A stretch of DNA of 64,000 nucleotides from NCBI RefSeq assembly GCF_004959925.1, contig NZ_SPUW01000004.1:1-64000 (forward strand), read 5' to 3'. This document shows positions 4,099 to 59,167 of this stretch, piece by piece. Source of the DNA: Pseudooceanicola onchidii. GTDB lineage: Bacteria; Pseudomonadota; Alphaproteobacteria; Rhodobacterales; Rhodobacteraceae. Below the pieces are notes generated by a model, which worked only from the letters and a program-made list of their open reading frames with translations, was not told the DNA's origin and searched no databases. The first letter of the stretch is position 1. Every line of letters starts with the position of its first letter. The position numbers and the translations under genes are program-made.

Positions 4099-4154
4099 GG
4101 TGCCGACATATGCGCGGATGGCCTCATGCCTCTGGCTCAATAGGAGACAAGACC

Positions 4155-5168
4155 TTGAAAACACTTCTGAACAAAACTGCCCTGACCCTCGTGGCCGGCG
4201 CCCTGTTTGCAGGTCCTGCCCTGGCCGAGGAATGGCGCTTCAACAACTTCCTGCCCGAGACCCGCCCCGAGTCCGCGCAGCTGGACCAGTTCGCCGAAGA
4301 CGTGAACACCGCGCTGGCCGACAAGGATTTCTCGATCCAGATGTATCACGGCGGGTCGCTTGGCCTGCCCAACACCGACCTGCTGCGTGTGGTCCCGACC
4401 GGCGCGGTCGAGATGAGCCTGATGTGGTCGAACTATCTGGGCCGTGACGCGCCGGAACTCGGCTCGGTCTTCGTGCAGGGCGCGATCAGCACCGTGGACG
4501 AGCTCAAGGCCGTGCTGCCCGTCGCGCAAGAGATCTACACCGAAGCCTACAACGACTGGGACATTACCACCGTCGGGTTCGTGGCAATCCCCACCCTGTC
4601 GGTGTCGGTCTTCTGCCGCGACAAGCCGATCAACACGCTGGAAGACCTGCGCGACGTGAAGCTGCGCGTCTGGGCCCGCGAACAGGTTGAGACCTTCACC
4701 AAGCTGGGCGTCGCGGCACAGATCGTCCCGCAGGAAGAAGTCTATGTCGCCCTTCGCACCGGCGTGGTCGACTGCGCGCTGTACCCGGCGCTTTATGCCC
4801 ACACCATTTCCCTGCAGGAGGTGACGAAATACGCGTCGTTCCTCTACCCCATGGCCTCGGCGCCCTACACGATCGCCGTGCAGGACGACCGTTGGGAAAA
4901 CACCGACCCCGAGATCCGCGATGCGATCACCGCGGCGGCGGATGCGCTGTGGGAACGCACCAACCAGTATGACGCCGACCTCGAGAACGAACTGGCCGCG
5001 CGTGAGAAGCTGGTCGAACAGGGCATCACCTGGGGCGAGGACTTCCCGCAGGCCGACCGCGAACAGTTCGTCGCGGCCGTGTCCGAAACCTGGGCCATGC
5101 TGGCGGAAGAAGCCGGTGGCGAGGCGCTGGACTATCGCGCCCGCATGCTGAAGGCCCTGGGCCGCTAA
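4155..5168 (+). CDS. TRAP transporter substrate-binding protein (DctP family)
   Basis: A 337-residue periplasmic binding protein of a tripartite ATP-independent periplasmic transporter. I chose the TTG at 4155 because TAGGAGA sits eight bases upstream and the resulting N-terminus is a clean Sec signal peptide (MKTLLNKTALTLVAGALFAG, cleavage after ALA, before EEWRF). The longer reading from 4110 would put 15 unlikely residues in front. The DctP fold is indicated by TDLLRVVPTGAVEMSLM, VKLRVWAREQVETFTKLG and ALRTGVVDCALYPALYA, including the arginine that normally binds the substrate carboxylate. It heads a three-gene operon with DctQ and DctM. The substrate is unknown. Confidence 0.88.
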   Translation: MKTLLNKTALTLVAGALFAGPALAEEWRFNNFLPETRPESAQLDQFAEDVNTALADKDFSIQMYHGGSLGLPNTDLLRVVPTGAVEMSLMWSNYLGRDAPELGSVFVQGAISTVDELKAVLPVAQEIYTEAYNDWDITTVGFVAIPTLSVSVFCRDKPINTLEDLRDVKLRVWAREQVETFTKLGVAAQIVPQEEVYVALRTGVVDCALYPALYAHTISLQEVTKYASFLYPMASAPYTIAVQDDRWENTDPEIRDAITAAADALWERTNQYDADLENELAAREKLVEQGITWGEDFPQADREQFVAAVSETWAMLAEEAGGEALDYRARMLKALGR

Positions 5169-5178
5169 GACCCGGGTC

Positions 5179-5736
5179 ATGCGGATCCGTCACACCTTTG
5201 CGCAGGGGCTGGATCACCTGGCCCTTGCGCTGGCGCTCTGCGCCTCGGCCTGCATGGTGGCCATCGTCGGGCTGGTGACAACCAGCGTGATCCTGCGCCG
5301 CTTTGCCGGGACGCCGCTGCACATCACCGAAGACGTGGTCGGCCTGCTGCTGACGGCGATGCTGTTCCTGGGCCTGCCGTTGGTCACGATCCGGGCGCAG
5401 CACGTGCGCGTGTCGATCGTGGCGACTGCGCTGGACCCGCGCTTTGGTCGCTTGGTCCATGTCGCGGCGATGCTGGTCGGGATCGTCTTCTTCGGCTGGA
5501 TCTTCCTCAAGGCGCTGCCTTGGCTTGAATTCGCGTGGAAGCGCAACCTCAAGACCGAAACGGCGCGGCTGCTGCTGTATCCCTGGATGGCGGCGCTGCC
5601 CCTGTCCGTGGGCCTGACCTGGGTGATCTTTGCCGGCCGTCTGACCGGCCTGCTGGACCGTGAACACCACAGCGCCCCCGAAGAGGGCACGACCATCGCG
5701 CCCACCCCCTCCGACCCGAACGACAGGGACAGCTGA
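5179..5736 (+). CDS. TRAP transporter small permease (DctQ family)
   Basis: A 185-residue membrane protein with four predicted transmembrane helices (about residues 15-40, 50-70, 90-115 and 130-152). It is the small membrane subunit that pairs with DctM in TRAP secondary transport driven by sodium or proton gradients. The helix-1 end VILRRFAGTPL and the segment around WLEFAWKRNLKTETAR are typical. The C-terminal tail is polar and cytoplasmic. It begins 10 bp after dctP and ends 3 bp before dctM. Confidence 0.88.
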   Translation: MRIRHTFAQGLDHLALALALCASACMVAIVGLVTTSVILRRFAGTPLHITEDVVGLLLTAMLFLGLPLVTIRAQHVRVSIVATALDPRFGRLVHVAAMLVGIVFFGWIFLKALPWLEFAWKRNLKTETARLLLYPWMAALPLSVGLTWVIFAGRLTGLLDREHHSAPEEGTTIAPTPSDPNDRDS

Positions 5737-5739
5737 TCG

Positions 5740-7029
5740 ATGTTCTGGACCACTTTGATCGGCATCCTGGTGACCTCGGCCGCCACGGGCGTGGCGCTTG
5801 GCGCGGCGCTTGGGCTGACCGGGCTCGTGCTGTTGCAGGTCTTCTCCAACGGCGCCACCGGGCTGGCCGTGGACGCGATCTGGAACGTGTTCAATTCCTT
5901 CACGCTCAGCGCGGTGCCGCTGTTCATCCTGCTGGGCGAGATCCTGCTGCGCAGCGGGGTCAGCAACCGCGCCTACGCAGCCTTCGCGCCGGTCTTCAGC
6001 AAGGTGCCGGGCGGGCTGCTCCACACCAATATCGCGGTCTGCACGATCTTCGGCGCGGTCAGCGGATCAAGCCTGTCGACCGCCGCCGCCGTCGGGTCGG
6101 TCGCCTACCCCGAGATGACGCGCCGCGGCTATGACCGTGACGTGATCGTCGGCTCTCTTGCGGGGGGCGGCACGCTTGGCCTGCTGATCCCGCCCAGCCT
6201 GTCGTTCCTGATCTTCGGGGCGCTGACCGAAACCTCGATCGGGCGGCTCTTCATCGCGGGGATCATCCCGGGTCTGCTGATCGGCGCGGCCTTCATGGTC
6301 TACATCATGATCAAGGCGCTGCGGCACCCGCATGTCGCCCCGCGCGAAGACGTCCACGTGCCGCTGATCGCGATCCTGCGCGGCATGGGGCAGGTCTGGC
6401 CGCTGCTGCTGCTGATCGTTGCCGTTATCGGGTCGATCATCGGCGGCATCGCCACCCCGACCGAAGCCGCCGCCCTGGGCGTGGTCATCGCCACGGTGAT
6501 TTCCTTCATCTGGGGCGATCTGACCCTGGCGTCGCTGTGCGCGGCGATCTTCCACGCCACGCTGCTCTTCGCCTCGATCGGGTTCGTGGTCATGGGCGCG
6601 ACGATCCTGGCGCAGTCGGTCAGCATCCTGGGCGTGGCGCAGCAGGTGCTGAACGTCGTCGCCGACAGCGGGCTGAACCGCTATACGATCCTGCTGCTGG
6701 TGGTGCTGATCTACCTGGTGATGGGCTGTTTCTTCGACGGGCTGTCGCTGATGATCATGACCCTGCCGGTGGTCTTTCCGCTGCTGGTCGGGCTGGGCTA
6801 TGACCCGATCTGGATCGGCGTCATGATCACCATCGTGATCGAGATCGGGCAGGTCACGCCGCCCGTCGGCCTGAACCTCTCGGTGCTGGCCAGCCTCACC
6901 AACAACGAGGTCAGCCTGGGCCGGGTGGCGCGCGCGACGGTGCCCTACTGGGTCATCCACCTGCTGGCCATCGCGGTGCTGGCGGCCTTTCCGGGCATCG
7001 CGCTGTTTTTGCCGGACCTGCTGTTCTAA
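5740..7029 (+). CDS. TRAP transporter large permease (DctM family)
   Basis: A 429-residue, very hydrophobic protein with about 12 helices, the transport-catalysing subunit of the TRAP system. Family landmarks are AVPLFILLGEILLRSGVSNR, GAVSGSSLSTAAAVGSVAYP, GTLGLLIPPSLSFLIFG, TPTEAAALGVV and GQVTPPVGLNLSVLASL. Length is normal. It is the last gene of the operon. A strong GC-rich hairpin lies 60 bp downstream, between it and the convergent PRC-barrel gene. Confidence 0.92.
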   Translation: MFWTTLIGILVTSAATGVALGAALGLTGLVLLQVFSNGATGLAVDAIWNVFNSFTLSAVPLFILLGEILLRSGVSNRAYAAFAPVFSKVPGGLLHTNIAVCTIFGAVSGSSLSTAAAVGSVAYPEMTRRGYDRDVIVGSLAGGGTLGLLIPPSLSFLIFGALTETSIGRLFIAGIIPGLLIGAAFMVYIMIKALRHPHVAPREDVHVPLIAILRGMGQVWPLLLLIVAVIGSIIGGIATPTEAAALGVVIATVISFIWGDLTLASLCAAIFHATLLFASIGFVVMGATILAQSVSILGVAQQVLNVVADSGLNRYTILLLVVLIYLVMGCFFDGLSLMIMTLPVVFPLLVGLGYDPIWIGVMITIVIEIGQVTPPVGLNLSVLASLTNNEVSLGRVARATVPYWVIHLLAIAVLAAFPGIALFLPDLLF

Positions 7030-7639: not shown

Positions 7640-8695
<1,056 letters not shown>

Positions 8696-8701
8696 GTCAC
8701 G

Positions 8702-10834
8702 TCACAGCGTGCAGGACACGCAGCCTTCGACTTCGGTGCCTTCCAGCGCGGCCTGGCGCAGGCGGATGTAGTAGATCGTCTTGATCCCCTTCTTCCAGGC
8801 ATAGATCTGCGCCCGGTTGATATCGCGGGTCGAGGCCTCGGCCGGGAAGAACAGCGTCAGCGACAGGCCCTGGTCGACATGTTCGGTGGCCGCCGCATAG
8901 GTGTCGATGATCGCCTCGGGCCCGATGTCATAGGCGTCGCGGTAGAATTCCAGGTTCTCGCCGGTCATGTAGGGCGCGGGATAGTAGACCCGGCCGATCT
9001 TGCCTTCCTTGCGGATCTCGATCTTCGCCGTGATCGGGTGGATCGAGGAGGTCGCATAGTTGATATAGCTGATCGACCCGGTCGGCGGCACCGCCTGAAG
9101 GTTGCGGTTGTAAAGCCCGTGTTCCATCACGTCGGCCTTCAGCGCGGCCCAGTCCTTCTTGGTCGGCAGGTCGATGCCGAACCGTTTGAACAGCGCCTTC
9201 ACCTCACCCAGTTCGGGGCGCCAGCTGCGGCTGGTGTACTTGTCGAAAAACGCGCCCGAGGCATAGGTCGAGCTTTCGAACCCCTTGAAGGTCTGCCCCT
9301 TTTCCCGCGCCAGCCTGCACGAGGCCGTCAGCGCGTGGAACAGGACGGCGGCGAAATAGACGCTGGTGAACTCGACCCCCTCGGGGCTGCCATAGTGGAT
9401 GCGTTCGCGTGCCAGGAAGCCATGCAGGTTCATCTGGCCCAGGCCGATCGCATGGCTTTCGTCGTTGCCCTTGCGGATCGACGGGACCGAGTCGATCGCC
9501 GACATCTCGGACACGGCATTCAGCGCGCGGATCGCTGTCGCGACCGAGGCGCCCAGATCGCCGCCGTCCATCGCCCGGGCGATGTTCATCGACCCGAGGT
9601 TGCACGAAATGTCGGTGCCCATCTGCGCATAGGACAGGTCGTCGTTGAATTCGGACGCCTCGTTCACCTGCAGGATTTCGGAACACAGGTTCGACATGGT
9701 GATGCGGCCCGCGATCGGGTTCGCCTTGTTCACCGTGTCTTCGAACATGATGTAGGGATAGCCTGATTCAAACTGGATCTCGGCCAGCGTCTGGAAGAAC
9801 GCACGGGCGTTGATCTTGGTCTTGCGGATCTTGGGGTTGTCGACCATCTCGGCGTATTTCTCGGTGACCGAGATTTCCGAGAAGGCGCAGCCATAGACCT
9901 TTTCCACGTCATGCGGCGAAAAGAGGTACATGTCCTCGTTCTTCTTCGCCAGCTCGAAGGTCACGTCGGGGATCACCACGCCGAGGCTCAGTGTCTTGAT
10001 GCGGATCTTCTCGTCCGCGTTCTCGCGCTTGGTGTCGAGGAACCGCAGGATGTCGGGGTGATGCGCGTTCAGATAGACCGCGCCGGCGCCCTGACGTGCG
10101 CCCAGCTGGTTGGCATAGGAAAAGCTGTCTTCCAGCAGCTTCATCACCGGGATCACGCCGGACGACTGGTTCTCGATCCCCTTGATGGGGGCGCCGTGTT
10201 CGCGGATGTTGGTCAGCATCAGGGCCACGCCGCCGCCCCGCTTGCTGAGTTGCAGGGCCGAATTGATGCCGCGCCCGATGCTCTCCATGTTGTCTTCCAG
10301 TCGCAGCAGGAAGCAGGACACGAATTCACCCCGCGCGGTCTTGCCCGCGTTCAGGAAGGTCGGCGTGGCGGGCTGGAAGCGGCCCGACAGGATCTCCTCC
10401 ATCAGCTGCATCGCCAGGGTTTCATCACCCCGCGCCAGCGCCAGCGCGTTCATCACCACGCGGTCTTCATAGCGTTCAAGGTAGCGTTTCCCGTCGCGGG
10501 TCTTCAGCGTGTACGAGGTGTAGTACTTGAACGCGCCCAGGAAGGTCGGAAAGCGGAATTTCCTGGCAAAGGCCGCGTCCCAGATCTTGCGCAGGTAGTC
10601 CTTGGAATACTGCTCAAGCACCGCAGCTTCGTAATAGCCCTCGTCGACCAGATAGCCGAGCTTTTCCTCGAGCGAATGGAAGAAGACCGTGTTCTGGTTG
10701 ACGTGCTGCAGGAAGTACTGCCGCGCGGCCATCCGGTCGGCTTCGAACTGGATGTTGCCGTCCTCGTCATAGAGGTTCAGCATCGCGTTCAGCGCGTGAT
10801 AGTCGAGGCCCTGCGTCAGGCTGGCGTCAAGCAT
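8702..10834 (-). CDS. nrdE: Class Ib ribonucleoside-diphosphate reductase, large catalytic subunit NrdE
   Basis: A 710-residue reductase subunit that converts ribonucleoside diphosphates to deoxyribonucleotides. The catalytic cysteines appear in NLCSEILQ and [11 protein letters not shown], and the C-terminal redox pair is CVSC in the last residues ([10 protein letters not shown]). There is no N-terminal ATP-cone, as expected for class Ib, which lacks dATP overall-activity control. I start at the ATG at 10834 ([16 protein letters not shown]). The in-frame extension to 10930 is arginine-rich and antisense-like. The start lies inside the end of nrdI (19-bp overlap), indicating translational coupling. 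Confidence 0.95.
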
Positions 10835-11232
10835 TCTGTCCCCCAGAATTTGGTCAGCCCGTCGCGGACGCGGGCGATATCGGTGTCGGTCCCGGCCAGT
10901 TCGAAACGATACAGCACGGGCACGTTGCATTTGCGCGCGACGACCTGGCCGGCCATCGCGAAGGTTTCCCCGAAGTTGCGGTTGCCGGCGGCGATCACGC
11001 CGCGCAGCAGGCGGCGGTTCGCCTCGACATTCAGGAATCGGATCACGGGCTTTGCCACAGCGCCCCGCCCTTGGCCATCCGCATATGTCGGGCAGATCAG
11101 CACGAAGGGCGCGGTCATCCGGGGCGGTTCGGCATCGCCGCGCAGCGGCAGCCTGACAGAGGGAAGGCCCAGCCGGTCCACGAAGCGCGCGGTATTGCCC
11201 GACCCGCTTGAGAAATAGGCAAGGCCGCCCAT
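10816..11232 (-). CDS. nrdI: NrdI flavodoxin-like activator of class Ib ribonucleotide reductase
   Basis: A 138-residue NrdI, a small flavodoxin-fold protein that supplies the oxidant for assembling the Mn-tyrosyl cofactor of NrdF. The FMN phosphate loop is visible as [13 protein letters not shown] at the N-terminus, and the family motif [19 protein letters not shown] lies in the second half. It sits between nrdH (5-bp gap) and nrdE (19-bp overlap). Its presence, with no NrdAB-type features, confirms the class Ib assignment. Confidence 0.94.
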
Positions 11233-11237
11233 CCCGA

Positions 11238-11459
11238 TCAGCTCAGGCGGCTGATCATGTCGGGGCGGAACCCGGCCCAGTGATCGTCGCCGGCCACGAC
11301 GACGGGCGCCTGGCGGTAGCCCAGGCCGGTGACCAGTTCCATGGCGGCGGCATCTTCGGTCAGGTCGATGATGTCATAGTCGATGCCACGCGCGGTCAGG
11401 GCGCGGGTGGTCGCGGTGCACTGCACGCAGGCGGGCTTGGAATAGACGGTGATGCTCAT
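11238..11459 (-). CDS. nrdH: NrdH glutaredoxin-like redox protein
   Basis: A 73-residue electron donor for class Ib ribonucleotide reductase. The redox motif CVQC is at residues 11-14 (YSKPACVQC). The thioredoxin-reductase-interacting signature typical of NrdH shows in [23 protein letters not shown]. It is the first gene of nrdHIEF. Its Shine-Dalgarno AAAGGGA, 6 nt before the ATG, lies in the 3' arm of a predicted hairpin downstream of a cobalamin riboswitch, so expression should respond to B12. Confidence 0.93.
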
Positions 11460-11465
11460 GGTGGT

Positions 11466-11498
11466 CCCTTTGCCAATTTTTTGCCTCTGGGCGAAGGG
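11466..11498 (-). promoter_or_regulatory. Predicted RBS-sequestering hairpin of nrdH (riboswitch expression platform)
   Basis: In the minus-strand RNA, CCCTTCGCC (plus 11498-11490) pairs with GGCAAAGGG (plus 11474-11466) in eight of nine positions (one C-A mismatch), with a 15-nt loop. The second arm contains the Shine-Dalgarno sequence of nrdH. Such masking is the usual translational OFF form of cobalamin riboswitches in Gram-negative bacteria. Folding was done by eye. Confidence 0.55.
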
Positions 11499-11561
11499 GA
11501 CACGAAGACCGGCCGGAAGGCCTGTCCGCGCGTCCGGGCCCTCCGCCGCGGTCGTCGTTCA

Positions 11562-11734
11562 TGCCTTGGCAGGTCTCCTGACTTGCGGCTCGGACGTTGT
11601 CGATCCGCCTTCCCGGTGTGCCTGTGACACCAGTGGATCCGGACCGGAACTTGCCGCTTACAGTTGCGGGGGCAGTGCCGGATTTACACCGACTTCCCTC
11701 TTAGCGCACGAGTCACCTCGCGAGCACCAAAGCA
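11562..11734 (-). promoter_or_regulatory. Cobalamin (AdoCbl-type) riboswitch upstream of nrdHIEF
   Basis: Read on the minus strand, the element has the hallmark B12 box AGTCAGGAGACCTGCC near its 3' end (plus 11568-11583). It also has the conserved core GGTGTAAATCCGGC, then CTGCCCCCGCAACTGTAAG, further 5'. An 8-bp P1 stem closes it: TGCTTTGG (plus 11734-11727) pairs with CCAAGGCA (plus 11569-11562). It lies 102 bp before nrdH with no gene between. Known cobalamin riboswitches turn off B12-independent isozymes when cobalamin is available, which fits a class Ib reductase. Confidence 0.93.
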
Positions 11735-11739
11735 ACTGC

Positions 11740-11769
11740 ATATTGGGGTTGGTGGCCTTGGGCTGTCAA
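11740..11769 (-). promoter_or_regulatory. Candidate nrdHIEF promoter
   Basis: On the minus strand a perfect TTGACA -35 (plus 11764-11769) is followed after 18 bp by a weak CAATAT -10 (plus 11740-11745). Transcription would begin near 11733, at the first base pair of the riboswitch P1 stem, which supports the placement. Confidence 0.45.
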
Positions 11770-11788
11770 TATATCGCCACAGGTTTTC

Positions 11789-11797
11789 CGTGGATAA
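11789..11797 (-). promoter_or_regulatory. Possible DnaA box upstream of nrdHIEF
   Basis: The minus strand reads TTATCCACG, eight of nine bases of the DnaA box TTATCCACA, about 20 bp upstream of the candidate -35. DnaA regulates nrd genes in E. coli. A single near-match is weak evidence. Confidence 0.25.
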
Positions 11798-11815
11798 GTC
11801 GGGATTGCACGGATC

Positions 11816-11847
11816 GGGCCACACCTGCGGCGGGTGCGGCGTGGCCC
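11816..11847. terminator. Hairpin between the cupin gene and the nrd regulatory region
   Basis: GGGCCAC (11816-11822) and GTGGCCC (11841-11847) form a 7-bp stem with GC-rich loop sequence, 13 bp after the stop of the upstream minus-strand cupin gene. It probably ends that eight-gene operon. There is no clear T-run. Confidence 0.4.
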
Positions 11848-11860
11848 TTGGCCCGTGGGG

Positions 11861-12388
11861 TCAGCGGATGAACTGGTCGACGAAATCCGCCCCCAGGCCG
11901 ACCTTTTCGTAATGCGCGCGGCACATGTCGATCTTGGTGAAGACGTCTTCGAACCCCATGGTCTTGCCCCAGGGATCGACATAGAGCATCACGCCGTTGA
12001 CCTGGAACATGGTGATCATCTCGTCCACGTCCTCGGGCACGACAAGGGTATGCGTCTCGCCCGGCGCCTCGAAGACATAGCCGCCCTCTTCGGCCATCCA
12101 GTCGTGTTCCAGGTAATGCCAGCGCCCCTTGATGACATAGCCATGCACCGCCTGCGGATGCCGGTGGCGCGACAGCACGCCCGATTTGCGCACGCGCAGC
12201 AGGTTCATCCAGTAACCCTGGCTGCGGTTCAGGCACAGCGGGCGGAAGGCGACGTTTTCGGCCTGGGGCACCCAGATCCGTTCGTCCTCGGGGATCGCCT
12301 TGGGGATGACGATCTCTTCCTGTGCGTCCTTGGGAAAGGGCAGCTGGTAGGGGGTGCGCGCGTCGGCGTCGGCGGTTTCAACGGGCAT
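11861..12388 (-). CDS. Cupin protein, 2,4'-dihydroxyacetophenone dioxygenase-like
   Basis: A 175-residue cupin. The likely metal-binding motif is RHRHPQAVHGYVIKGRWHYLEHDW, with several histidines, followed by the second cupin motif GETHTLVVPEDVDEM. The overall pattern resembles the DAD (2,4'-dihydroxyacetophenone dioxygenase) family, in which an iron centre cleaves a carbon-carbon bond. Many relatives are uncharacterised. I start at MPVETADADART (12388), just after GGAACC. Upstream in-frame sequence is antisense-like. It is the last gene of a TRAP/SDR/sugar-kinase operon, where a dioxygenase or a cupin isomerase are both possible. Confidence 0.8.
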   Translation of the reverse strand: MPVETADADARTPYQLPFPKDAQEEIVIPKAIPEDERIWVPQAENVAFRPLCLNRSQGYWMNLLRVRKSGVLSRHRHPQAVHGYVIKGRWHYLEHDWMAEEGGYVFEAPGETHTLVVPEDVDEMITMFQVNGVMLYVDPWGKTMGFEDVFTKIDMCRAHYEKVGLGADFVDQFIR

Positions 12389-15699: not shown

Positions 15700-16716
15700 T
15701 CAGAACTGGTCGCGATAGGCCTGAACGGCAGCGTCCAGCTTGTTCGGCCAGTCCTCGCCGATCTCGCCCACGACAAATTCCTTCACCGCCGGCTGCGCCT
15801 TTTCGCGGAACATCGCCTTCTGTTCGGGGCTGACGGCCACGACGGTCATGCCCTTTTCTTCAAGGATGGTGGTCGCATTGGCATCCTGTGCGGCGGTCAT
15901 GCCGCGGTGGATGGTCTTGGCGATGTCCGAACACTGGGTGACGGCGACCTGTTCGGCCTTGGTCAACCCCTGGTAGAAGTCGTCGGACATCAGGTAGGCG
16001 TGCCAGCTGAAGACGTGCCCATCCAGCGACACGTACTTCTGGTTCTGGTAGAGCGAGGCGTTGACGATATTGGTCACGCCGTTTTCCTGACCGTCGACCA
16101 CGCCCTGCTGCAGCGCGCCGGGCAGTTCGGGCCACGGCACCGGGGTCGCCGAGGCGCCAAGGCTTTCCACCAGCGTCACCCAGACCGGCGCGGTCATGAC
16201 CCGCATCTTCAGGCCTTCCATGTCCTTGGGTTCGGCAATGGGGCGGATGTTGTTGGTAAAGTTGCGCACGCCGTTGTCGGCCGCGCCGAACATCCGGATG
16301 CCCGTCTTGTCCAGCATGTCGGCGGCCAGGTCGTCGCCAAAGTCGCCGTCCATCACCGACCAGGCCATCGCCTGATCGTCGAAGAGGTAGGGCAGGGCGA
16401 GCACCGAGAAGGGCTTGTACATGGCCGAGATCGGTCCGTCATGCACGACGGCCATCTGGATGGTGCCCAACTGCAGGCCCTCCATCACCTCGTTGTCGCC
16501 GGCCAGCTGGCCCGCGGGGAAGATCTGCACATCGATCGACCCGGCGGTCTTGCCCTCGACACAGCTTTCAAAGGCCAGCGCCGCGGCGTGTTTCGGGGAA
16601 CTGAGGTCGGCCGACTGGAAGTGCGCGTATTTCAGATCCTTGGCGACGGCGGCCTGCCCGGCCACGGTCAGGGCGATTGTCGCAGTCGCGGTAAGCAGTT
16701 TTGACATGGTTTTCAT
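15700..16716 (-). CDS. TRAP transporter substrate-binding protein (DctP family)
   Basis: A 338-residue periplasmic binding protein. The start at 16716 is set by GGGAGG upstream and gives a Sec signal peptide (MKTMSKLLTATATIALTVAG, cleavage near AVAKD). DctP hallmarks are GTIQMAVVHDGPISAMYKPF, MEGLKMRVMTAPVWVTLVESLGA with the substrate-binding arginine, and ELPGALQQGVVDGQENGVTN. It is the third gene of the operon, after dctQ and dctM, an order different from the first TRAP operon. The sugar-acid enzymes downstream suggest a hydroxylated acid substrate. Confidence 0.9.
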   Translation of the reverse strand: MKTMSKLLTATATIALTVAGQAAVAKDLKYAHFQSADLSSPKHAAALAFESCVEGKTAGSIDVQIFPAGQLAGDNEVMEGLQLGTIQMAVVHDGPISAMYKPFSVLALPYLFDDQAMAWSVMDGDFGDDLAADMLDKTGIRMFGAADNGVRNFTNNIRPIAEPKDMEGLKMRVMTAPVWVTLVESLGASATPVPWPELPGALQQGVVDGQENGVTNIVNASLYQNQKYVSLDGHVFSWHAYLMSDDFYQGLTKAEQVAVTQCSDIAKTIHRGMTAAQDANATTILEEKGMTVVAVSPEQKAMFREKAQPAVKEFVVGEIGEDWPNKLDAAVQAYRDQF

Positions 16717-16735
16717 TGGTTTCCTCCCTTGCATG

Positions 16736-18022
16736 TCAGTTTGAGAACCCGAAGAACGTCGGGACAAAGGTGCTGATGCCTGGCACCAGGATGACCAGAA
16801 GCAGCACGATGAGCTCGGCCGCGAGAAGCGGCAGAACGGCACGGGACAGCGCGTCGAGGCGCAGCTGGCCGACGCTGGCGATCACGAAAAGCACCGGGCC
16901 GACCGGGGGCGTGACCATGCCGATGGTCAGGTTCAGCACCAGCATCATGCCGAACTGAAGCGGGTCGATCCCCGCGCCATAGGCGATCGGGCCCAGCACC
17001 GGCGTCAGGATGATCAGCGCGGGCAGGGTGTCGATGAAGAACCCGCAGACCAGCGCGAAGGCGGCCAGGATGAACAGCACGCCCAGCCGCGTGTCGGTGA
17101 CCGAGGCGACCATCCGGGCCAGGTCCTGCGGGATCTGCAGATAGGTCAGCAGCCAGGCAAAGATCGACGCCATCGCGATGATCAGGAAGACCGACGAAGT
17201 GATGATCGCGGCGCGGGTGAAGGCAACGTAGAGGCCGCGCAGGGAATAGGCGCGCAGCACCAGCCCCAGCAGCAGCGCATAGGCCGAGGCGACCGCGCCG
17301 GCCTCGGTCGGGGTGAAGACGCCGAAGATGATGCCGCCCAGGATGATCGCGGGCATGACCAGCGCGGGCAGGGCGGCAAGCGCGCTGCGCGACAGTTCAG
17401 CCCTGCCCGCGCGGGTGTCACGGCCGCGATAGCCATGCCGCGTCGACACGATGTGGTTGGCCAGTGCCAGGGCAAGCCCCAGCAGCACCCCCGGCACGAT
17501 CCCGGCCAGGAACAGCCCCGCCACGGTCACGCCATTGGTCGAGATCGCGAAGATCACGGCCAGGATCGACGGCGGGATGATCGGCCCGATCGTCGCCGTC
17601 GCGGCCGACAGCGCGCCCGCGTAATGCTTGTCATAGCCCGCCTCGCGCATCATCCGCATGACGATGGCCGACGGCCCCGCCGCATCGGCCAGCGCCGATC
17701 CGGAAATGCCCGCGAACAGCATCGACACCAGCACGTTCACATGCCCCAGCCCGCCGCGCAGGTGGCCGACCAGCGCGTTGGCAAAGTTCAGCAGCGCCCG
17801 GGTCAGCCCGCAGGCGGTCATCAGTTCCGACGCCAGGATGAAGAAGGGCACGGCCATCAGCGGAAAGCTGTCGATGCCCGCGAACATGCGCTGCGTGGCG
17901 ACCAGCGGGTTCAGGCTGCCTTCGATGAAGATCGCCGCGATGCCCGCCACGCCCATGGTGAAGGCCACGGGCACGCCCAGGATCAGGGTCGCGAAGAACA
18001 GAAGGATCAGGGTCTTCGCCAT
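16736..18022 (-). CDS. TRAP transporter large permease (DctM family)
   Basis: A 428-residue multi-spanning permease. Landmarks are FPLMAVPFFILASELMTACGLT, GISGSALADAAGPSAIVMRMM, ATATIGPIIPPSILAVIFA, FTPTEAGAVASAYALLLG and GMVTPPVGPVLFVIASV. The ATG at 18022 is preferred. A GTG six bases earlier overlaps the dctQ stop codon, so translation is probably coupled to dctQ either way. Confidence 0.91.
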   Translation of the reverse strand: MAKTLILLFFATLILGVPVAFTMGVAGIAAIFIEGSLNPLVATQRMFAGIDSFPLMAVPFFILASELMTACGLTRALLNFANALVGHLRGGLGHVNVLVSMLFAGISGSALADAAGPSAIVMRMMREAGYDKHYAGALSAATATIGPIIPPSILAVIFAISTNGVTVAGLFLAGIVPGVLLGLALALANHIVSTRHGYRGRDTRAGRAELSRSALAALPALVMPAIILGGIIFGVFTPTEAGAVASAYALLLGLVLRAYSLRGLYVAFTRAAIITSSVFLIIAMASIFAWLLTYLQIPQDLARMVASVTDTRLGVLFILAAFALVCGFFIDTLPALIILTPVLGPIAYGAGIDPLQFGMMLVLNLTIGMVTPPVGPVLFVIASVGQLRLDALSRAVLPLLAAELIVLLLVILVPGISTFVPTFFGFSN

Positions 18023-18024
18023 GG

Positions 18025-18552
18025 TCACGCGGTCTTGTCGGGGGTCGGGACGGGGGTGTCATCGGGCGCGGCATCGGCGAGGAACTCGAACTCCTCGCGG
18101 ACGAAGCGCGCGGCGAAGAGCACGAGGTGCAGCAGGAACAGCCCGCAGCCGATCGGGATCGACAGGTAGGCGACCCCGCGCGGCATGCCGGTTGACATGG
18201 TTTCCTTGTTCCAGCCGAACTGCACGAATTCCACGCCCAGCCAGAACATCGTGGCCATGAAGACGAACATGATGACCACGGCCAGCCACCGAAGCGCCCG
18301 GCCAAAGGCGGGCGATCCGAGCGAATGCAGCGTGGTGATGGCCACCAGCCGCCCTTCGCGCAGCGCCAGCCCGGCCCCTGCGAAGGCACCCAGGATCATC
18401 AGGTGGCGTGCGGCCTCTTCGACCCAGGCGAAGGACTGCCCGAAGCCATAGCGGCCGACCACGTTGACAAAGACGATGGCAAAGACGGCGGCCAGGACCA
18501 GCGCGACCAGCACGCGGTTCAGGACAACCAGTATGGCTTCTGCACGGGCCAA
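18025..18552 (-). CDS. TRAP transporter small permease (DctQ family)
   Basis: A 175-residue membrane protein with four predicted helices; FVNVVGRYGFGQSFAWVEEAARHLMILGAFAGAGLALREGRLV is the typical DctQ core. I take the TTG at 18552 as start, since GGGGAGGAG lies three to ten bases upstream. The longer reading to 18618 would translate through the operator palindrome. It is the first gene of the eight-gene minus-strand operon, divergent from the GntR regulator gene. Confidence 0.84.
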   Translation of the reverse strand: MARAEAILVVLNRVLVALVLAAVFAIVFVNVVGRYGFGQSFAWVEEAARHLMILGAFAGAGLALREGRLVAITTLHSLGSPAFGRALRWLAVVIMFVFMATMFWLGVEFVQFGWNKETMSTGMPRGVAYLSIPIGCGLFLLHLVLFAARFVREEFEFLADAAPDDTPVPTPDKTA

Positions 18553-52873: not shown

Positions 52874-53863
52874 ATGCGGATGACTATCGGAACGAAACTC
52901 AAGGGCGCCGTCGCGGCGCTGGCACTGGGGCTGGGGGCGACCAGCCTCATGGCGCAGGATGTGGTCGAACTGACCTATTCCGACACCGTTCAGGAAACCG
53001 ATCGCCGGTCGCGCATCCTGCGGGAAACCTTTTCGACCTGCCTGGGCGATGGCTTCAACTTCACACCCTATTTCGGCGCGACCTTGTTCAAGCAGGGGAC
53101 CGAACTGACCGCGATGCAGCGCGGCAACCTCGACATGGGGGCGCTGGCGATCTTCGATTTCTACAACCAGGTGCCCGAGGCGGCGATCCTGGGCACGGCC
53201 TATCTGTTCCGCGACGTCGACCACATGCGCAAGGTCTATGACAGCGAAGAGCTCAAGCCGCTGCTGACCAGCATCGAGGACAAGACCGGCATCAAGATCC
53301 TGGCCTGGCCCTACATCGGCACCCGACACGTCAACATCCGGGGCGACAAGGAAATCATGACGCCCGCCGACCTGGCGGGGATCAAGCTGCGGATGCCCGG
53401 CGGCGAAGGCTGGCAGTTCGTCGGTGAGGCGCTTGGCGCCAACCCGACGCCCTTGGCCTTCACCGAGGTCTACACCGCGCTGCAGACCGGCGCGATCGAC
53501 GGGCAGGACAACCCGCTGCCCGCCGACAAGCAGATGAAGTTCTACGAGGTCACGGACCAGATCATCCTGACCGGCCACCTGATCGCGGCCAACGTCTTTT
53601 CGGTGTCGAAATCCAAGTGGGATAGCCTGACCGCCGACCAGCAGGCCAAGCTGCAAAGCTGTTCGAAGGAATTCGAAACCGCCCTGTCCGACGACACCAT
53701 CGCGCAGGAGGCCGAACTGGTCGCCTTCATGGAGGGCGAGGGCCTGAAGGTCTACGAGCCGAACAAGGAAGCCTTCCGCAACCACGTGTTGGAGTACTTT
53801 CAGAACTCCAAATACTCCGAGGTCTGGCCCGAGGGGCTGATCGACAAGATCAACGGGCTGTGA
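52874..53863 (+). CDS. TRAP substrate-binding protein (DctP family), paralogue A
   Basis: A 329-residue periplasmic protein with signal peptide MRMTIGTKLKGAVAALALGL, cleaved near LMAQD. The core IKLRMPGGEGWQFVGEALGANPTPLAFTEVYTALQTGAIDGQDNPLP carries the substrate arginine and the DGQDNPLP motif shared with two paralogues nearby (56648-57622 and 58184-59167). GGGAGGAG precedes the ATG. A GC-rich hairpin follows, then dctQ and dctM. It is the only copy directly linked to membrane subunits. Confidence 0.91.
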   Translation: MRMTIGTKLKGAVAALALGLGATSLMAQDVVELTYSDTVQETDRRSRILRETFSTCLGDGFNFTPYFGATLFKQGTELTAMQRGNLDMGALAIFDFYNQVPEAAILGTAYLFRDVDHMRKVYDSEELKPLLTSIEDKTGIKILAWPYIGTRHVNIRGDKEIMTPADLAGIKLRMPGGEGWQFVGEALGANPTPLAFTEVYTALQTGAIDGQDNPLPADKQMKFYEVTDQIILTGHLIAANVFSVSKSKWDSLTADQQAKLQSCSKEFETALSDDTIAQEAELVAFMEGEGLKVYEPNKEAFRNHVLEYFQNSKYSEVWPEGLIDKINGL

Positions 53864-53905
53864 CGGCGGACGACCCACACCGGACAAGACCGGACACATG
53901 ACATC

Positions 53906-53930
53906 GGGCCCGGCGCCACAGCCGGGTCCC
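53906..53930 (+). terminator. Hairpin between dctP paralogue A and dctQ
   Basis: GGGCCCGGC (53906-53914) pairs with GCCGGGTCCC (53921-53930) over nine pairs with one bulged base and a 6-nt loop, then CCTTTC. A leaky terminator or stabilising stem here would raise binding-protein over permease levels. Confidence 0.5.
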
Positions 53931-53947
53931 CTTTCGCGGAGGAGCGC

Positions 53948-54463
53948 ATGATCGCGTCAACATTCACATGGCTGCACAGACGGGCCGAGAACCTGCTGGC
54001 GCTGGTTCTGGCGGCCCTGTTCGCCAGTTTCCTGATCCAGATCGTCTTCCGCTATCTGCTGAACCTGCCCCTGGGCTGGACGGTCGAATTCGTCGCGATC
54101 GCCTGGCTGTGGGGGATCCTCTTTGGCTATGCCTTCGTCGTGGCCGAGCGGGACGTGATCCGGCTGGATATCCTCTATGCCCTGCTGCCGCCACTGGCGC
54201 GGCGGGTGCTGGATGTCGTGACCTCGCTCATCTGCATCGCGATCTTCGCCTGGACGCTGCCGAAGGTCTGGGACTACGTCACCTTCATGAAAATCGAAAA
54301 GACCGCCTACATGAAGGTCCGGTTCGATTACGTCTTCTCGATCTACATCCCCTTCGCCCTGGCCGTGATCGCGCGCTGCGCCATCACCATCTGGAACGCC
54401 GTCGTCAATCCGGCCCCGGCGGAAATCGCGGGCATCAACGCCGAGGCCCACGACTATGATTGA
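53948..54463 (+). CDS. TRAP transporter small permease (DctQ family)
   Basis: A 171-residue membrane protein with four helices. FASFLIQIVFRYLLNLPLGWTVEFVAIAWLWGILFGYAFVVAERDVIRLD is a typical DctQ core. Ends 8 bp inside the dctM gene. Forms the only TRAP membrane module of the 52-59 kb region together with that gene. Confidence 0.9.
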   Translation: MIASTFTWLHRRAENLLALVLAALFASFLIQIVFRYLLNLPLGWTVEFVAIAWLWGILFGYAFVVAERDVIRLDILYALLPPLARRVLDVVTSLICIAIFAWTLPKVWDYVTFMKIEKTAYMKVRFDYVFSIYIPFALAVIARCAITIWNAVVNPAPAEIAGINAEAHDYD

Positions 54464-55751
54464 TCCCTTCCTCGCCTCCATCCTGCTTCTGGCGTTCCTG
54501 GCCATCGGCGGCCTGTCGATCGGCCTGGCGATGATCTGCGCCTCGACCGTCTACCTGATGATGCGCGGGTTCGATCCCTCGATCGCGTCGGAAACCCTGC
54601 TGCAGGGGCTGTTCAACAGCTATACGCTGCTGGCGATCCCGCTGTTCGTCCTGGCGGCGGACATCATGAACATCGGCTCTCTCGCCGACCGCCTTCTGCG
54701 CTTTTCCGAGGCGCTGGTCGGCCGGTTCAAGGGCGGGCTGGGGCATGTGAACGTCGTCTCGTCGCTGATCTTTTCCGGCATGTCCGGATCGGCGGTGGCC
54801 GACGCGGTCGGCATGGGCAAGATCATCATCGGCATGATGACCAAGGATGGTCGCTATACCGCGTCCTATGCCGCCGCGATCACCGCCGCCTCGGCCACGA
54901 TCGGGCCGATCATCCCGCCGTCGATCCCGATGGTGCTTTACGCGCTCGTCTCGGACCAGTCGGTCGGCTATCTCTTTGCGGCCGGGATGCTGCCGGGTCT
55001 GCTGATGGCGGTCGTGCTGATGGTGATGAACGTGATCATCGCCTATCGCCGCGATTTCCCGACCGACAACGCCATTCCGCTGCGCGAGATGCCGGGCGTC
55101 ACCTTCCGCGCCATTCCCGCGCTGCTGCTGCCGGTGATCCTGCTGGGCGGCATCTACGGCGGCGTCATGACCCCGACCGAGGCAGCGGCGGTCGCGGCCT
55201 TCTATGCGCTGTTCGTGTCGGCGGCCTTCTACCGGTCGGTCACGGCGGGGCAGTTCTATCAGACGCTGCTGGCCTCGGCCAAATCCACCGCGACGATCGG
55301 CATCCTGATCGCCGGCGCGCTGACCTTCCAATACGTGATCACCCGCGAAAACGTGCCGGTCAGCCTGTCGAACTGGCTGGGCCAGTACGACCTTGGCCCG
55401 GTGCAGTTCCTGATCGCGATCAACCTGCTGTTCCTGGTGCTGGGCTGCATCCTGGAATCCGGGGCGATCCTGCTGATCATCGTGCCGATCTTCATCCCGA
55501 CCGCGCAGGCGCTTGGCATCGACCTGGTGCACTTCGGGGTGGTCTGCGTGGTCAACGCGATGCTGGGGCTGATCACGCCGCCCTACGGGTTGTTGCTGTT
55601 CATCGTGTCGTCGATCACCAAGCAACCCCTGATGCGGATCGTGCGCGACCTGCTGCCCTTCCTGATCGCGCTGTTCATCGCGCTTGGCATCATCACCTTC
55701 GTGCCGGACTTCGTGCTCTGGCTGCCGCGCCTGCTGGGGTACAAGGGATGA
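54456..55751 (+). CDS. TRAP transporter large permease (DctM family)
   Basis: A 431-residue, 12-helix permease. Landmarks are LAIPLFVLAADIMNIGSLADRLL, IFSGMSGSAVADAVGMGKIIIGMM, ASATIGPIIPPSIPMVLYA, MTPTEAAAVAAFYALFV and GLITPPYGLLLFIVSSI. It overlaps the SMP-30 gene by four bases (ATGA), so uptake and the lactonase-like protein are co-translated. Confidence 0.92.
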   Translation: MIDPFLASILLLAFLAIGGLSIGLAMICASTVYLMMRGFDPSIASETLLQGLFNSYTLLAIPLFVLAADIMNIGSLADRLLRFSEALVGRFKGGLGHVNVVSSLIFSGMSGSAVADAVGMGKIIIGMMTKDGRYTASYAAAITAASATIGPIIPPSIPMVLYALVSDQSVGYLFAAGMLPGLLMAVVLMVMNVIIAYRRDFPTDNAIPLREMPGVTFRAIPALLLPVILLGGIYGGVMTPTEAAAVAAFYALFVSAAFYRSVTAGQFYQTLLASAKSTATIGILIAGALTFQYVITRENVPVSLSNWLGQYDLGPVQFLIAINLLFLVLGCILESGAILLIIVPIFIPTAQALGIDLVHFGVVCVVNAMLGLITPPYGLLLFIVSSITKQPLMRIVRDLLPFLIALFIALGIITFVPDFVLWLPRLLGYKG

Positions 55752-56629
55752 GCGACGTGAAGATCGACCTCGCGCACCGGGCCGAGGCGCAGCTGGGCGA
55801 GACCTGCCTGTGGGATGCCCGAACCGGGCTGCTGGGCTGGATCGACATCGAACAGCCACGGTTTTACACGCTTGACCCCGCCACCGGCGCGACGACCAGC
55901 GTGGCGCATCCCGGCACCTACCTTGGCTGCCAGGCGCTGACCCGGTCGGGGCGGCAGCTGCTGGCCCGCGACCTGACGCTGATCACCTGTGACGCCGACG
56001 GCAGCGACGTCCGCGTGCTGGCCGAAACGCCCGGAGAGGCCATGCCCGACACCCGCCTGAACGATGGCCGGGTCGACGCGCAGGGGCGGCTCTGGATCGG
56101 GACGATGGACAACGAATTGCACCGGGGGCTTGGGCATCTCTACCGGGTCGACCCCGATGGCACGATGACCGCGGTGCTGGGTGACGTGATCGTGTCGAAC
56201 GGCATCGCCTTCGACCCGCAGGGCCGCTGGATGTGGTTCACCGATACACGGCGGCACCTGACCTGGAAGATCCATCTGGACGCCGACGGCACCGTGACGG
56301 GGCGCGACCCCTGGGCCGATTACAGTGCCTCGGGTGGCCGCCCGGACGGGGCCTGCGTCGATGCCGACGGCTGTCTCTGGCAGGCGATGTTCGGGGGCGG
56401 GCGCGTGGTGCGCTATGCGCCCGACGGCCGCATCGACCGCGACATCGCGCTGCCGGTGACCAACCCGACCTGCCTGTGCTTCGGCGGGCCGGACCTGAGC
56501 ACGCTGTTCGTCACCAGCGCCACGAAATTCCTGACCCCCGAGCAGCGCGCGACCGAACCGCTGGCCGGGTCCGTCCTGGCCATTCACGGCGCGGGGCAAG
56601 GGATGCCCGAAAACCTATTCAATATCTGA
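55748..56629 (+). CDS. SMP-30/gluconolactonase/LRE family protein
   Basis: A 293-residue six-bladed beta-propeller lactonase. The metal site residues are expected in AQLGETCLWDARTGLLGWIDIEQP (first Glu), RLNDGRVDAQGRLWIGTMDNEL, VSNGIAFDPQGRWMWFTDTRRHLTW (Asn) and GRPDGACVDADGCLWQAMFGGGRVVRY (Asp). All are present. It hydrolyses a sugar or hydroxy-acid lactone. In this cluster a quinate or related lactone is a reasonable but untested substrate. Confidence 0.88.
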   Translation: MSDVKIDLAHRAEAQLGETCLWDARTGLLGWIDIEQPRFYTLDPATGATTSVAHPGTYLGCQALTRSGRQLLARDLTLITCDADGSDVRVLAETPGEAMPDTRLNDGRVDAQGRLWIGTMDNELHRGLGHLYRVDPDGTMTAVLGDVIVSNGIAFDPQGRWMWFTDTRRHLTWKIHLDADGTVTGRDPWADYSASGGRPDGACVDADGCLWQAMFGGGRVVRYAPDGRIDRDIALPVTNPTCLCFGGPDLSTLFVTSATKFLTPEQRATEPLAGSVLAIHGAGQGMPENLFNI

Positions 56630-56647
56630 CCCACAGGGAGGACCCCC

Positions 56648-57622
56648 ATGAAACTGACACTCAAGGCCATGATGCTGGCCGCCGCGACCGCCGTCGCGCT
56701 GCCCGCCGCAGCACAGGACAAGGTCGAACTGATCTTTTCCGACGTGAACCCGCCCGAGGTGCCGCGGTCAAAGGCGATGGTCGAGATCTTTGCCGCCGAA
56801 CTGGGCGACAGCTTCGACTTCCAGCCCTACTTCAGCGCGACGCTGATGAAGCAGGGGACCGAACTTGTCGGCCTGCAGCGCGGCAACATCCAGATGGCCG
56901 GCCTGCCGCCGTCGGACCTGGCGCAGCAGGCGCCCGAATTCGACATCCTCGGCGCGGCCTATGTCGTGCGCGACCAGGCGCATCTGAAGGCGATCTTCAA
57001 CTCCGAGGTCGGTGATCAGCTGAAGGCCATCGCCCGCGACAAGCTGGGCGTCGAGATCCTTGGCACCTTCTACTACGGCACCCGCCAGGTGAACCTGAAG
57101 GGCGACATGCAGGTCCAGACCCCGGCCGATCTGTCGGGCGTGAAGCTGCGGATGCCCGGCGGCGAAAGCTGGCAGTTCCTGGGCCGGTCGCTTGGCGCGA
57201 ACCCGGTGCCGATCCCCTATACCGAACTGTACACCGCGCTGCAGTCCGGCGTCGTCGACGGCCAGGACAACCCGCTGCCGAACGACAAGGCGATGAAGTT
57301 CTACGAGGTCACGGACCAGATCGTCCTGACCAACCACAACGTCGGCTTCGGCATGCTGCTGGTGTCGTCGCAGGTCTGGAACGGCCTGAGCGATGACCAG
57401 AAGGCCGCGATGCAGGCCGCCGCCGACAAGGCGACCGCCTGGTCCGATGAACAGTACCTGGCGGAAGAGGCTGAACTGGTTGCCTTTTTCGAAGGCGAGG
57501 GCCTGAAGGTCTACAGCCCCGACGTGAAGGCCTTCCAGGAGCACGCGCAGAAGATGTACCTGGAGTCGGACCTGTCCAAGAACTGGCCCGAGGGCATGCT
57601 GGACGCGATCAACGCGCTCTGA
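56648..57622 (+). CDS. TRAP substrate-binding protein (DctP family), paralogue B
   Basis: A 324-residue binding protein with signal peptide MKLTLKAMMLAAATAVALPA, cleaved near AAQDK. It shares VKLRMPGGESWQFLGRSLGANPVPIPYTELYTALQSGVVDGQDNPLP with paralogues A and C and is closest to C in its C-terminal EGMLDAINAL. It follows the SMP-30 gene by 18 bp but has no permease genes of its own, so it probably feeds the DctQM pair upstream with a second substrate. It ends at a strong bidirectional terminator. Confidence 0.9.
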   Translation: MKLTLKAMMLAAATAVALPAAAQDKVELIFSDVNPPEVPRSKAMVEIFAAELGDSFDFQPYFSATLMKQGTELVGLQRGNIQMAGLPPSDLAQQAPEFDILGAAYVVRDQAHLKAIFNSEVGDQLKAIARDKLGVEILGTFYYGTRQVNLKGDMQVQTPADLSGVKLRMPGGESWQFLGRSLGANPVPIPYTELYTALQSGVVDGQDNPLPNDKAMKFYEVTDQIVLTNHNVGFGMLLVSSQVWNGLSDDQKAAMQAAADKATAWSDEQYLAEEAELVAFFEGEGLKVYSPDVKAFQEHAQKMYLESDLSKNWPEGMLDAINAL

Positions 57623-58183: not shown

Positions 58184-59167
58184 TCAAAGCGCGTTGATGC
58201 GGTCCAGCATGCCTTCGGGCCAGTCTTTCGACAGGTCCGAGTCAAGGTACATCTTCTGGGCATAGGCGCGGAAGGCGTCTACGTCGGGGGTGTGGAAGGT
58301 CATGCCCTCCCCCTTGAGGAATTCGACCAGCTCGGCCTCGCGGGCCAGGTGCTGTTCGGTCGACCAGGCGATGGCCTCGTCCGCTGCGGCCTGGAATTCG
58401 GCCTTCTGCGCGTCGTCCAGCTTGTCCCAGACCGTCTTGGACACGACCAGCAGGTCATAGGCGATCAGGTGCGAGGTCAGGACGGTCTGCTTCTCGACCT
58501 CGTAGAACTTCATGTTCTCGACGTTCGGCAGCGGGTTGTCCTGCCCGTCGATCGCACCGTTCTGCAGGCCGGTGTAGACCTCGGGATAGGCCATGGGCGT
58601 CGGGTTCGCCCCAAGCGCGCGACCCAGGAACTGCCAGCTTTCGCCGCCGGGCATGCGCAGCTTGATGCCGGCCATGTCCTCGGGCGTGTTGATTTCCTTG
58701 TCGGTGCGCAGGCCGACCTGCCGGGTGCCGAAATAGGTCGGGCCCAGGATGTGGATTCCCAGCTGGTCCTCGGCCATCTGCTTCATCTCGGCGCCCACGT
58801 CCGACGCCCAGAAGGTCTTGAGGTGGTCGGCATCGCGGAACAGATAAGCCGAGGTCAGGATCGAGAAGGCCGGGATCTGGTTCGACACGTCCTGCGGGGC
58901 GATGTTGCCCATCTCGAGGTTGCCACGCTGCAGCGCGACCAGTTCGGTCCCCTGCTTGAACAGCGTCGCGCCGTAGTAGCCGTTGAAGGTGTAGCCGTCG
59001 CCAAGCGCCTCGGCGAACTTCTGCATCATCTCGGCCCGGATGTCCTGCTGCGAGAATACGGCCGAGAAGTTCAGTTCGACCTTGTCCTGCGACAACGCGG
59101 GCAGCGCGGTGGCAAGCAGGCCGACCGTGGCGGCGCCCATCATCAGGCGTCGGGTCAGTGTGAGCAT
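58184..59167 (-). CDS. TRAP substrate-binding protein (DctP family), paralogue C
   Basis: A 327-residue binding protein with signal peptide MLTLTRRLMMGAATVGLLAT, cleaved near ALSQDK. IKLRMPGGESWQFLGRALGANPTPMAYPEVYTGLQNGAIDGQDNPLP marks it as a sister of paralogues A and B. It has no permease genes beside it, is divergent from a GntR regulator and precedes aroQ. GGAGGAG upstream of the ATG is a strong ribosome binding site. Confidence 0.91.
   Translation of the reverse strand: MLTLTRRLMMGAATVGLLATALPALSQDKVELNFSAVFSQQDIRAEMMQKFAEALGDGYTFNGYYGATLFKQGTELVALQRGNLEMGNIAPQDVSNQIPAFSILTSAYLFRDADHLKTFWASDVGAEMKQMAEDQLGIHILGPTYFGTRQVGLRTDKEINTPEDMAGIKLRMPGGESWQFLGRALGANPTPMAYPEVYTGLQNGAIDGQDNPLPNVENMKFYEVEKQTVLTSHLIAYDLLVVSKTVWDKLDDAQKAEFQAAADEAIAWSTEQHLAREAELVEFLKGEGMTFHTPDVDAFRAYAQKMYLDSDLSKDWPEGMLDRINAL

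Follow-up and report, generated by a model that had tools for sequence, protein, structure and literature searches.

The window analyzed here, 64,000 nucleotides of Pseudooceanicola onchidii (positions 1 to 64,000 of contig NZ_SPUW01000004.1), carries a class Ib ribonucleotide reductase operon, nrdHIEF, behind what a first-pass annotation had read as a cobalamin riboswitch. The locus raises the question of why an enzyme independent of B12 should be placed under a B12 sensor and how the sensor would reach the ribosome binding site of nrdH, which that annotation took to be masked. The canonical B12 box, the core, and the closing P1 stem that it had described on the minus strand are all found:

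11551..11746 (-), cobalamin riboswitch aptamer (RF00174), covariance-model match of 120.7 bits
11727..11734 (-), P1 5' strand TGCTTTGG, pairing with 11562-11569, from the sequence and the Rfam alignment
11675-11661 (-), aptamer core CTGCCCCCGCAACTG, read from the sequence
11667..11672 (-), L5 loop CCCCCG, proposed to form a kissing loop with L13, from the sequence, with the L5-L13 role taken from PMC10653944
11568..11582 (-), B12 box GTCAGGAGACCTGCC, from the sequence and the Rfam match
11562..11569 (-), P1 3' strand CCAAGGCA, from the sequence and the Rfam alignment

The covariance-model search for the cobalamin family that had been suggested as a check gave a score of 120.7 bits against a gathering score of 31.5 bits. 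The match (cmscan of the whole window; E 1e-29) covers model positions 1-189, that is, its full length, at 11551-11746 (-), and is the only RNA match in the window at or above the gathering threshold; a whole-genome search returned the same match at the same position. Because its peripheral part is complete, the riboswitch is probably an AdoCbl-selective class I member.

Directly downstream of the aptamer and on the same strand is an intact nrdH-nrdI-nrdE-nrdF cluster, with the nrdH start at 11459:

11238..11459 (-), nrdH, glutaredoxin-like reductant of 73 aa (TIGR02194, 99.9 bits, above cut-off)
10816..11232 (-), nrdI, flavoprotein for class Ib assembly (TIGR00333, 144.2 bits, above cut-off)
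8702..10930 (-), nrdE, class Ib large subunit, as open frame (TIGR04170, 1205 bits)
7640..8617 (-), nrdF, class Ib small subunit (TIGR04171, 475.7 bits), sole PF00268 match genome-wide

The four products occur in this order, each above its curated NCBIfam cut-off, and together with the RF00174 match they establish that a class Ib nrdHIEF operon lies under a cobalamin riboswitch. The TIGR04170 match begins at residue 43 of the nrdE open frame, and the real start is probably the ATG at 10834. Long open frames also run antisense to the operon at 9911-11218 (+) and 11208-11627 (+); such frames are common in G+C-rich DNA. The contig that begins with the window has 157,705 bases and encodes two components of a repABC system near its start:

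302-1261, RepB of the repABC system
1450-2607, RepC of the repABC system

The presence of RepB and RepC on a contig of this size places the operon on a secondary replicon, which had been proposed as probable. TRAP-type transporter-like gene sets, judged from translations, are found on the same replicon at 4110-7029, 15700-18028, 52874-57622, and 58184-59167.

Whether a B12 sensor would be useful here depends on the other reductases of the genome. The assembly (3.67 Mb, 8 contigs) encodes two class II NrdJ proteins above cut-off, in open frames of ~790 and ~1290 residues, called with one model, TIGR02504. The first-pass annotation had supposed a class II NrdJ elsewhere, with the lack of one as an outcome that would count against it; the whole-genome search for nrdJ found these two copies. 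Among class I small subunits the genome has the nrdF of the window alone (PF00268), and no match to NrdD was found in it, so the class Ib enzyme is the only B12-independent reductase found. This content fits the logic that NrdJ serves with B12 and the class Ib enzyme without it. The genome contains two cobalamin riboswitches, the second lying upstream of the CbtB/CbtA cobalt transporter (cbtBA), ~3.4 kb from cobN. Because CobN is present, the genome may make B12, and repression could then be the usual state of the operon.

In the genus, NrdJ scores above cut-off in 22/22 genomes, and a class I small subunit is present in 11 and absent from the other 11, two of which are <90% complete; half of the genomes (11/22) appear to rely on the B12-dependent NrdJ. 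NrdH was found above cut-off in 11 genomes, and in 11/11 an RF00174 match lies on the same strand ~100 nt upstream. Ten of these switches score at least 96 bits, and that of genome G015, at 37.1 bits, is decayed.

Beyond the genus, the sample comprised the best 80 NrdE relatives listed from GTDB genomes, of which more exist. The annotation had called the pairing of the riboswitch with class Ib nrdHIEF one that is less often noted; this did not hold, since a switch matching the Rfam model precedes nrdHIEF in 66 of these best 80 relatives listed. The arrangement, as judged from these loci, is widespread and ordinary for alphaproteobacteria. The 14 loci that lack the switch are from seven Paracoccus, two Vibrio, Pseudoroseicyclus, and four actinobacteria. 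In the 50 of the 80 genomes that were searched, NrdJ was above cut-off in 44, and the remaining six all lack the switch. NrdJ accompanies the switch in 37/37 genomes as compared with 7/13 genomes without it (Fisher p 1.1e-4), a p value that serves as a guide only because kinship is uncorrected. The seven Paracoccus loci, with NrdJ in the genome yet no switch, run counter to a strict rule.

Two of the 66 switches, at loci L049 (2199-2384, 43.6 bits) and L050 (2175-2375, 37.1 bits), are decayed aptamers before an intact nrdE, with a broken B12 box and core and with L13 altered to CGAAGGG. They were considered as variants with a compensating L5, and this was rejected because the aptamers look decayed. 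L050 is from the same genome as G015 (identical coordinates), as is L128, which was dropped. Of the two NrdJ proteins, the genomes of L049 and L050 retain only the long one; the short NrdJ is also missing from genome G001, which has an intact switch. A second, divergent cobalamin riboswitch is found next to the nrdH switch at L119 (G018:C59:12508-12709) and L125 (G011:C16:64747-64943), and also in L044, L058, and L072. In G018 the gene behind it encodes a methionine synthase-like protein, and in G011 a Rieske protein resembling glycine betaine monooxygenase; both are cut fragments that score below the curated cut-offs.

The route from the aptamer to nrdH was examined through the segment that separates them:

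11537..11547 (-), P13 hairpin core with L13 CGGAGGG (11545-11539), arms covarying in relatives
11529..11535 (-), GGACGCG, 3' flank of P13 and candidate anti-sequestor strand, plausible from the third predicted fold
11492..11501 (-), anti-Shine-Dalgarno GTCCCCTTCG, overlapping the anti-sequestor partner CGTGTCC at 11504-11498, from folding and relatives
11464..11471 (-), nrdH Shine-Dalgarno AAAGGGAC, from the sequence

Published sources describe a kissing loop between L5 and L13 in cobalamin riboswitches that stabilizes P13 and so links the aptamer to the platform, with UCCCG as the L5 consensus (PMC10653944). An initial idea that L13 lies inside the loop of the Shine-Dalgarno hairpin was dropped because L5 is the UCCCG-like loop described there (PMC10653944). 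In the window, P13 follows just after P1 with a stem of 3 bp, plus CC/GG past an internal loop, and its L13 CGGAGGG is complementary to the L5 CCCCCG with one A bulged. A search after the aptamer for CGGNGG[GT], in which the loop was fixed and the stem arms were left free, matched 62/91 leaders; as the pattern itself fixed the loop, the constancy of the loop is no evidence. Of the 29 unmatched leaders, 14 lack a switch, one is the duplicate L128, and 2 have decayed aptamers; the pattern missed the other 12, although a looser scan shows this hairpin context in 8 of them. The stem is informative. Its four innermost pairs are standard in 60, 62, 59, and 55 of the 62 leaders, respectively, with arms that vary on both sides, and in 35 leaders two arms from the same leader pair better than arms swapped between leaders (z -8.1). 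In the window, L039, and L042, pairs three and four of the common register are non-standard, which puts the P13 of the window among the weakest.

The annotation had also placed a hairpin containing the nrdH Shine-Dalgarno 60-100 nt further on, and AAAGGGAC can indeed pair with GTCCCCTTCG, 61-98 nt after P1. Taken alone, the mask hairpin of the window is at the level of chance (z -0.05, with 95/200 shuffles equally stable; longest-helix p 0.59). Single-sequence folds of 37 leaders gave p<0.05 in 5 and a combined p of 0.006, and single-sequence folding was rejected as evidence for the mask because the window was not significant. Comparison of the leaders argues for the mask. Of 31 riboswitch leaders with an [AG]GGAC site, 26 have a GTCC in the 60 nt upstream of it, as against 0/6 leaders without a riboswitch (p 2e-4; L083, whose start is unclear, was left out), a contrast that was noticed first and tested afterwards. 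At the next base pair with the nearest GTCC, GGGAC stands with GTCCC in 8 leaders and with GTCCT in 1, and for AGGAC the counts are 9 GTCCT and 2 GTCCC, a G-C/A-U covariation with p 0.0055 on 20/28 leaders. The other eight of the 28 fall outside the 2x2 table; six are mismatches of the [AG]GGAC site (G/G 4, G/A 1, A/G 1), and two of these six hold another GTCC able to pair. Swapping spacers against Shine-Dalgarno sequences was not significant in a broad test (p 0.12) and gave p 0.019 when limited by position; no covariation signal was seen in the relatives for the anti-sequestor. The proposed mask on the nrdH ribosome binding site is therefore supported by the relatives, through the 26/31 against 0/6 contrast and the covariation, whereas the window considered by itself stays at chance and the case there is weak.

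When P13 was forced to form in silico in 35 leaders, the Shine-Dalgarno paired more strongly with leader sequence upstream of it, at 0.74 compared with 0.47 unforced (an increase in 18 leaders and a decrease in 3). The same constraint on dinucleotide-shuffled spacers took the value from 0.45 to 0.47; the two changes differ significantly (p 2.8e-4). Masking in the free form does not differ from that of the shuffled leaders (p 0.75). For the window, masking stood at 0.01 without and at 0.23 with P13 forced, the latter not exceeding the level of its shuffles (mean 0.31). Blocking L13 alone lowered Shine-Dalgarno accessibility in 16/35 leaders, as did blocking a neighboring control segment (also 16). 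The near-duplicates L072 and L127 were left out of the spacer and P13 swap tests and of the fold tests, and the fold-test string of L048, one of the 35 rows, had three repeated bases owing to a one-codon shift of its start. Since imposing P13 raises masking beyond that of shuffles, these models suggest that formation of P13, taken as the ligand-bound form, favors the mask.

The aptamer, the genes, the NrdJ content of the genomes, the covariation of P13, and the co-occurrence of a Shine-Dalgarno complement with the switch in relatives are all observed directly, and with them in hand we consider it very probable that, at high levels of coenzyme B12, the cobalamin riboswitch represses translation of the plasmid-borne nrdHIEF by way of L5-L13, P13, and the mask. 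In this mechanism AdoCbl, as the presumed ligand, would bind the aptamer, and L5 would kiss the L13 of P13 just downstream. With P13 formed, GTCCCCTTCG would be free to pair with the nrdH Shine-Dalgarno, turning the operon off; in the absence of ligand, the L13/P13 stretch would instead pair with the GTCCCCTTCG segment, and nrdH would be translated. That B12 means off is deduced from the platform and from known relatives. The precise route of switching is likewise a deduction, and so is the role in the cell: dNTPs would normally come from the two B12-dependent class II enzymes, with the B12-free class Ib enzyme as a backup.

Repression by B12 could also be exerted at transcription, through Rho after a translation block or through an intrinsic terminator, and not by masking alone. 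A translation block may help Rho (PMC11260477), and in rhizobial relatives the first strong site after the switch belongs to a short upstream ORF and not to nrdH, which direct masking of nrdH leaves unexplained. In 28/28 of the long leaders examined (27 rhizobial or related and one Arenimonas bin; L084-L118, Rhizobiales, and L086), the switch is followed by a GGGGTGAAG-type site and then by an ORF of 11-28 codons. Between the end of this ORF and nrdH lie 98-224 nt, and nrdH has a Shine-Dalgarno of its own. A short ORF after an ATG is by itself no surprise, but the conservation of the site and start is. However, in the window and other short leaders the site facing the platform is that of nrdH itself, and no terminator-like site is present in 11440-11880, so that for this switch a transcriptional mode appears unlikely. 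For the lineage of this switch, a tentative reading, to which we give somewhat less than an even chance, is that NrdJ is the housekeeping enzyme and nrdHIEF an optional, often replicon-borne cassette that insures against lack of B12, and that the platform in Rhizobiales has been re-targeted to the short upstream ORF, with nrdHIEF following by polarity or Rho. Action of a B12 riboswitch on an upstream ORF has a precedent in ppe2 of Mycobacterium tuberculosis (PMC11260477). In the literature searched, that reading of the cassette and its re-targeting was not found described for this operon, which does not prove its absence.

The region upstream of the aptamer suggests a further input:

11764..11769 (-), -35-like TTGACA, by eye, recurring in the leaders of many relatives
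11745-11740 (-), -10-like CAATAT, 3/6 to TATAAT, by eye
11764..11779 (-), candidate NrdR box 1 TGGCGATATATTGACA, from the box-pair score (window p 0.04)
11733..11748 (-), candidate NrdR box 2 CCCCAATATGCAGTTG, from the box-pair score

By eye, TTGACA with an AT-rich -10 element stands upstream of the aptamer in many leaders; scanning the window with a sigma-70 consensus gave no hit. Box pairs were scored with an NrdR box consensus, at 31-32 bp from start to start and within 620 bases upstream of nrdH, against mononucleotide shuffles. An NrdR-like pair with p<=0.05 was found in 70/90 leaders, including the window (p 0.04), and nrdR is present in the genome. The reported spacing of NrdR boxes is 15-16 bp (PMC12051234). 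The pair at 11733-11779 suggests joint control by NrdR and B12, in which the boxes over the promoter would probably add nucleotide control. The same evidence could be read to mean that NrdR is decisive and the riboswitch a minor modulator. We regard this as distinctly improbable, because both can act and a recognizable switch has been kept in 11/11 members of the genus with the operon, intact in 10. That the switch senses corrinoids and activates nrdHIEF, or is a functionless relic, has very little to recommend it: an activating corrinoid riboswitch is known (PMC10653944), and L049 (43.6 bits) and L050 (37.1 bits), clearly decayed before an intact nrdE, indicate that loss happens, but the window aptamer retains box, core, L5, and P1, the switch was absent wherever NrdJ was absent among the 50 genomes searched, and P13 formation masks the Shine-Dalgarno in silico and does not free it.

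Translational repression by B12 thus remains the preferred reading, and the feature of the window is a real, sensible, ordinary, and well-explained switch common to many related bacteria. The observation of the first-pass annotation is confirmed and was in the main read correctly, with a plausible mechanism that comparison partly supports. The locus shows how B12-reliant marine and soil alphaproteobacteria can hold a B12-free backup for DNA synthesis silent until needed. Because switch and NrdJ tend to co-occur and the platform varies readably, these leaders offer a good natural series for the coupling of L5-L13 to ribosome access.

The Rodionov survey of 2003 is said to name ribonucleotide reductase isozymes. 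The principle that a B12 element can stand over a B12-independent reductase had been published by 2004, with such elements preceding nrdDG in δ-proteobacteria that have NrdJ and the phenomenon seen in other genomes (PMC545781), and isozymes of B12-dependent enzymes are a listed class of cobalamin-regulated genes (PMC3766115). We therefore claim no novelty for the pairing, although none of the papers found on nrdHIEF and riboswitches has it in the title. The annotation was right that riboswitches of this kind are known, nrdABS of Streptomyces (PMC4991794) and nrdDG (PMC545781) being examples. In Desulfovibrio vulgaris and Desulfuromonas, nrdDG shares with the window a cobalamin riboswitch over a B12-independent reductase, NrdJ in the genome, and the proposed logic; there the enzyme is class III NrdDG, whereas in the window it is class Ib NrdHIEF, and both are predictions (PMC545781). 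The nrdABS operon of Streptomyces coelicolor is similar in that its class I reductase is under an AdoCbl switch and has a class II NrdJ as partner (Borovok 2006, cited by PMC4991794), but it is a class Ia operon and the effect reported is transcriptional (PMC4991794). The translational riboswitches of Escherichia coli btuB and env8HyCbl have the L5-L13 kissing loop, P13, and ribosome-site hairpin that are proposed for the window; they control other genes, and the bulge in the L13 of the window recalls the imperfect kissing loop of env8HyCbl (PMC10653944). The riboswitch of Caulobacter crescentus metE also governs a B12-independent isozyme that is shut off by B12 at translation (PMC6538847). 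That isozyme is a methionine synthase and not a reductase, and its switch was tested by reporter (PMC6538847).
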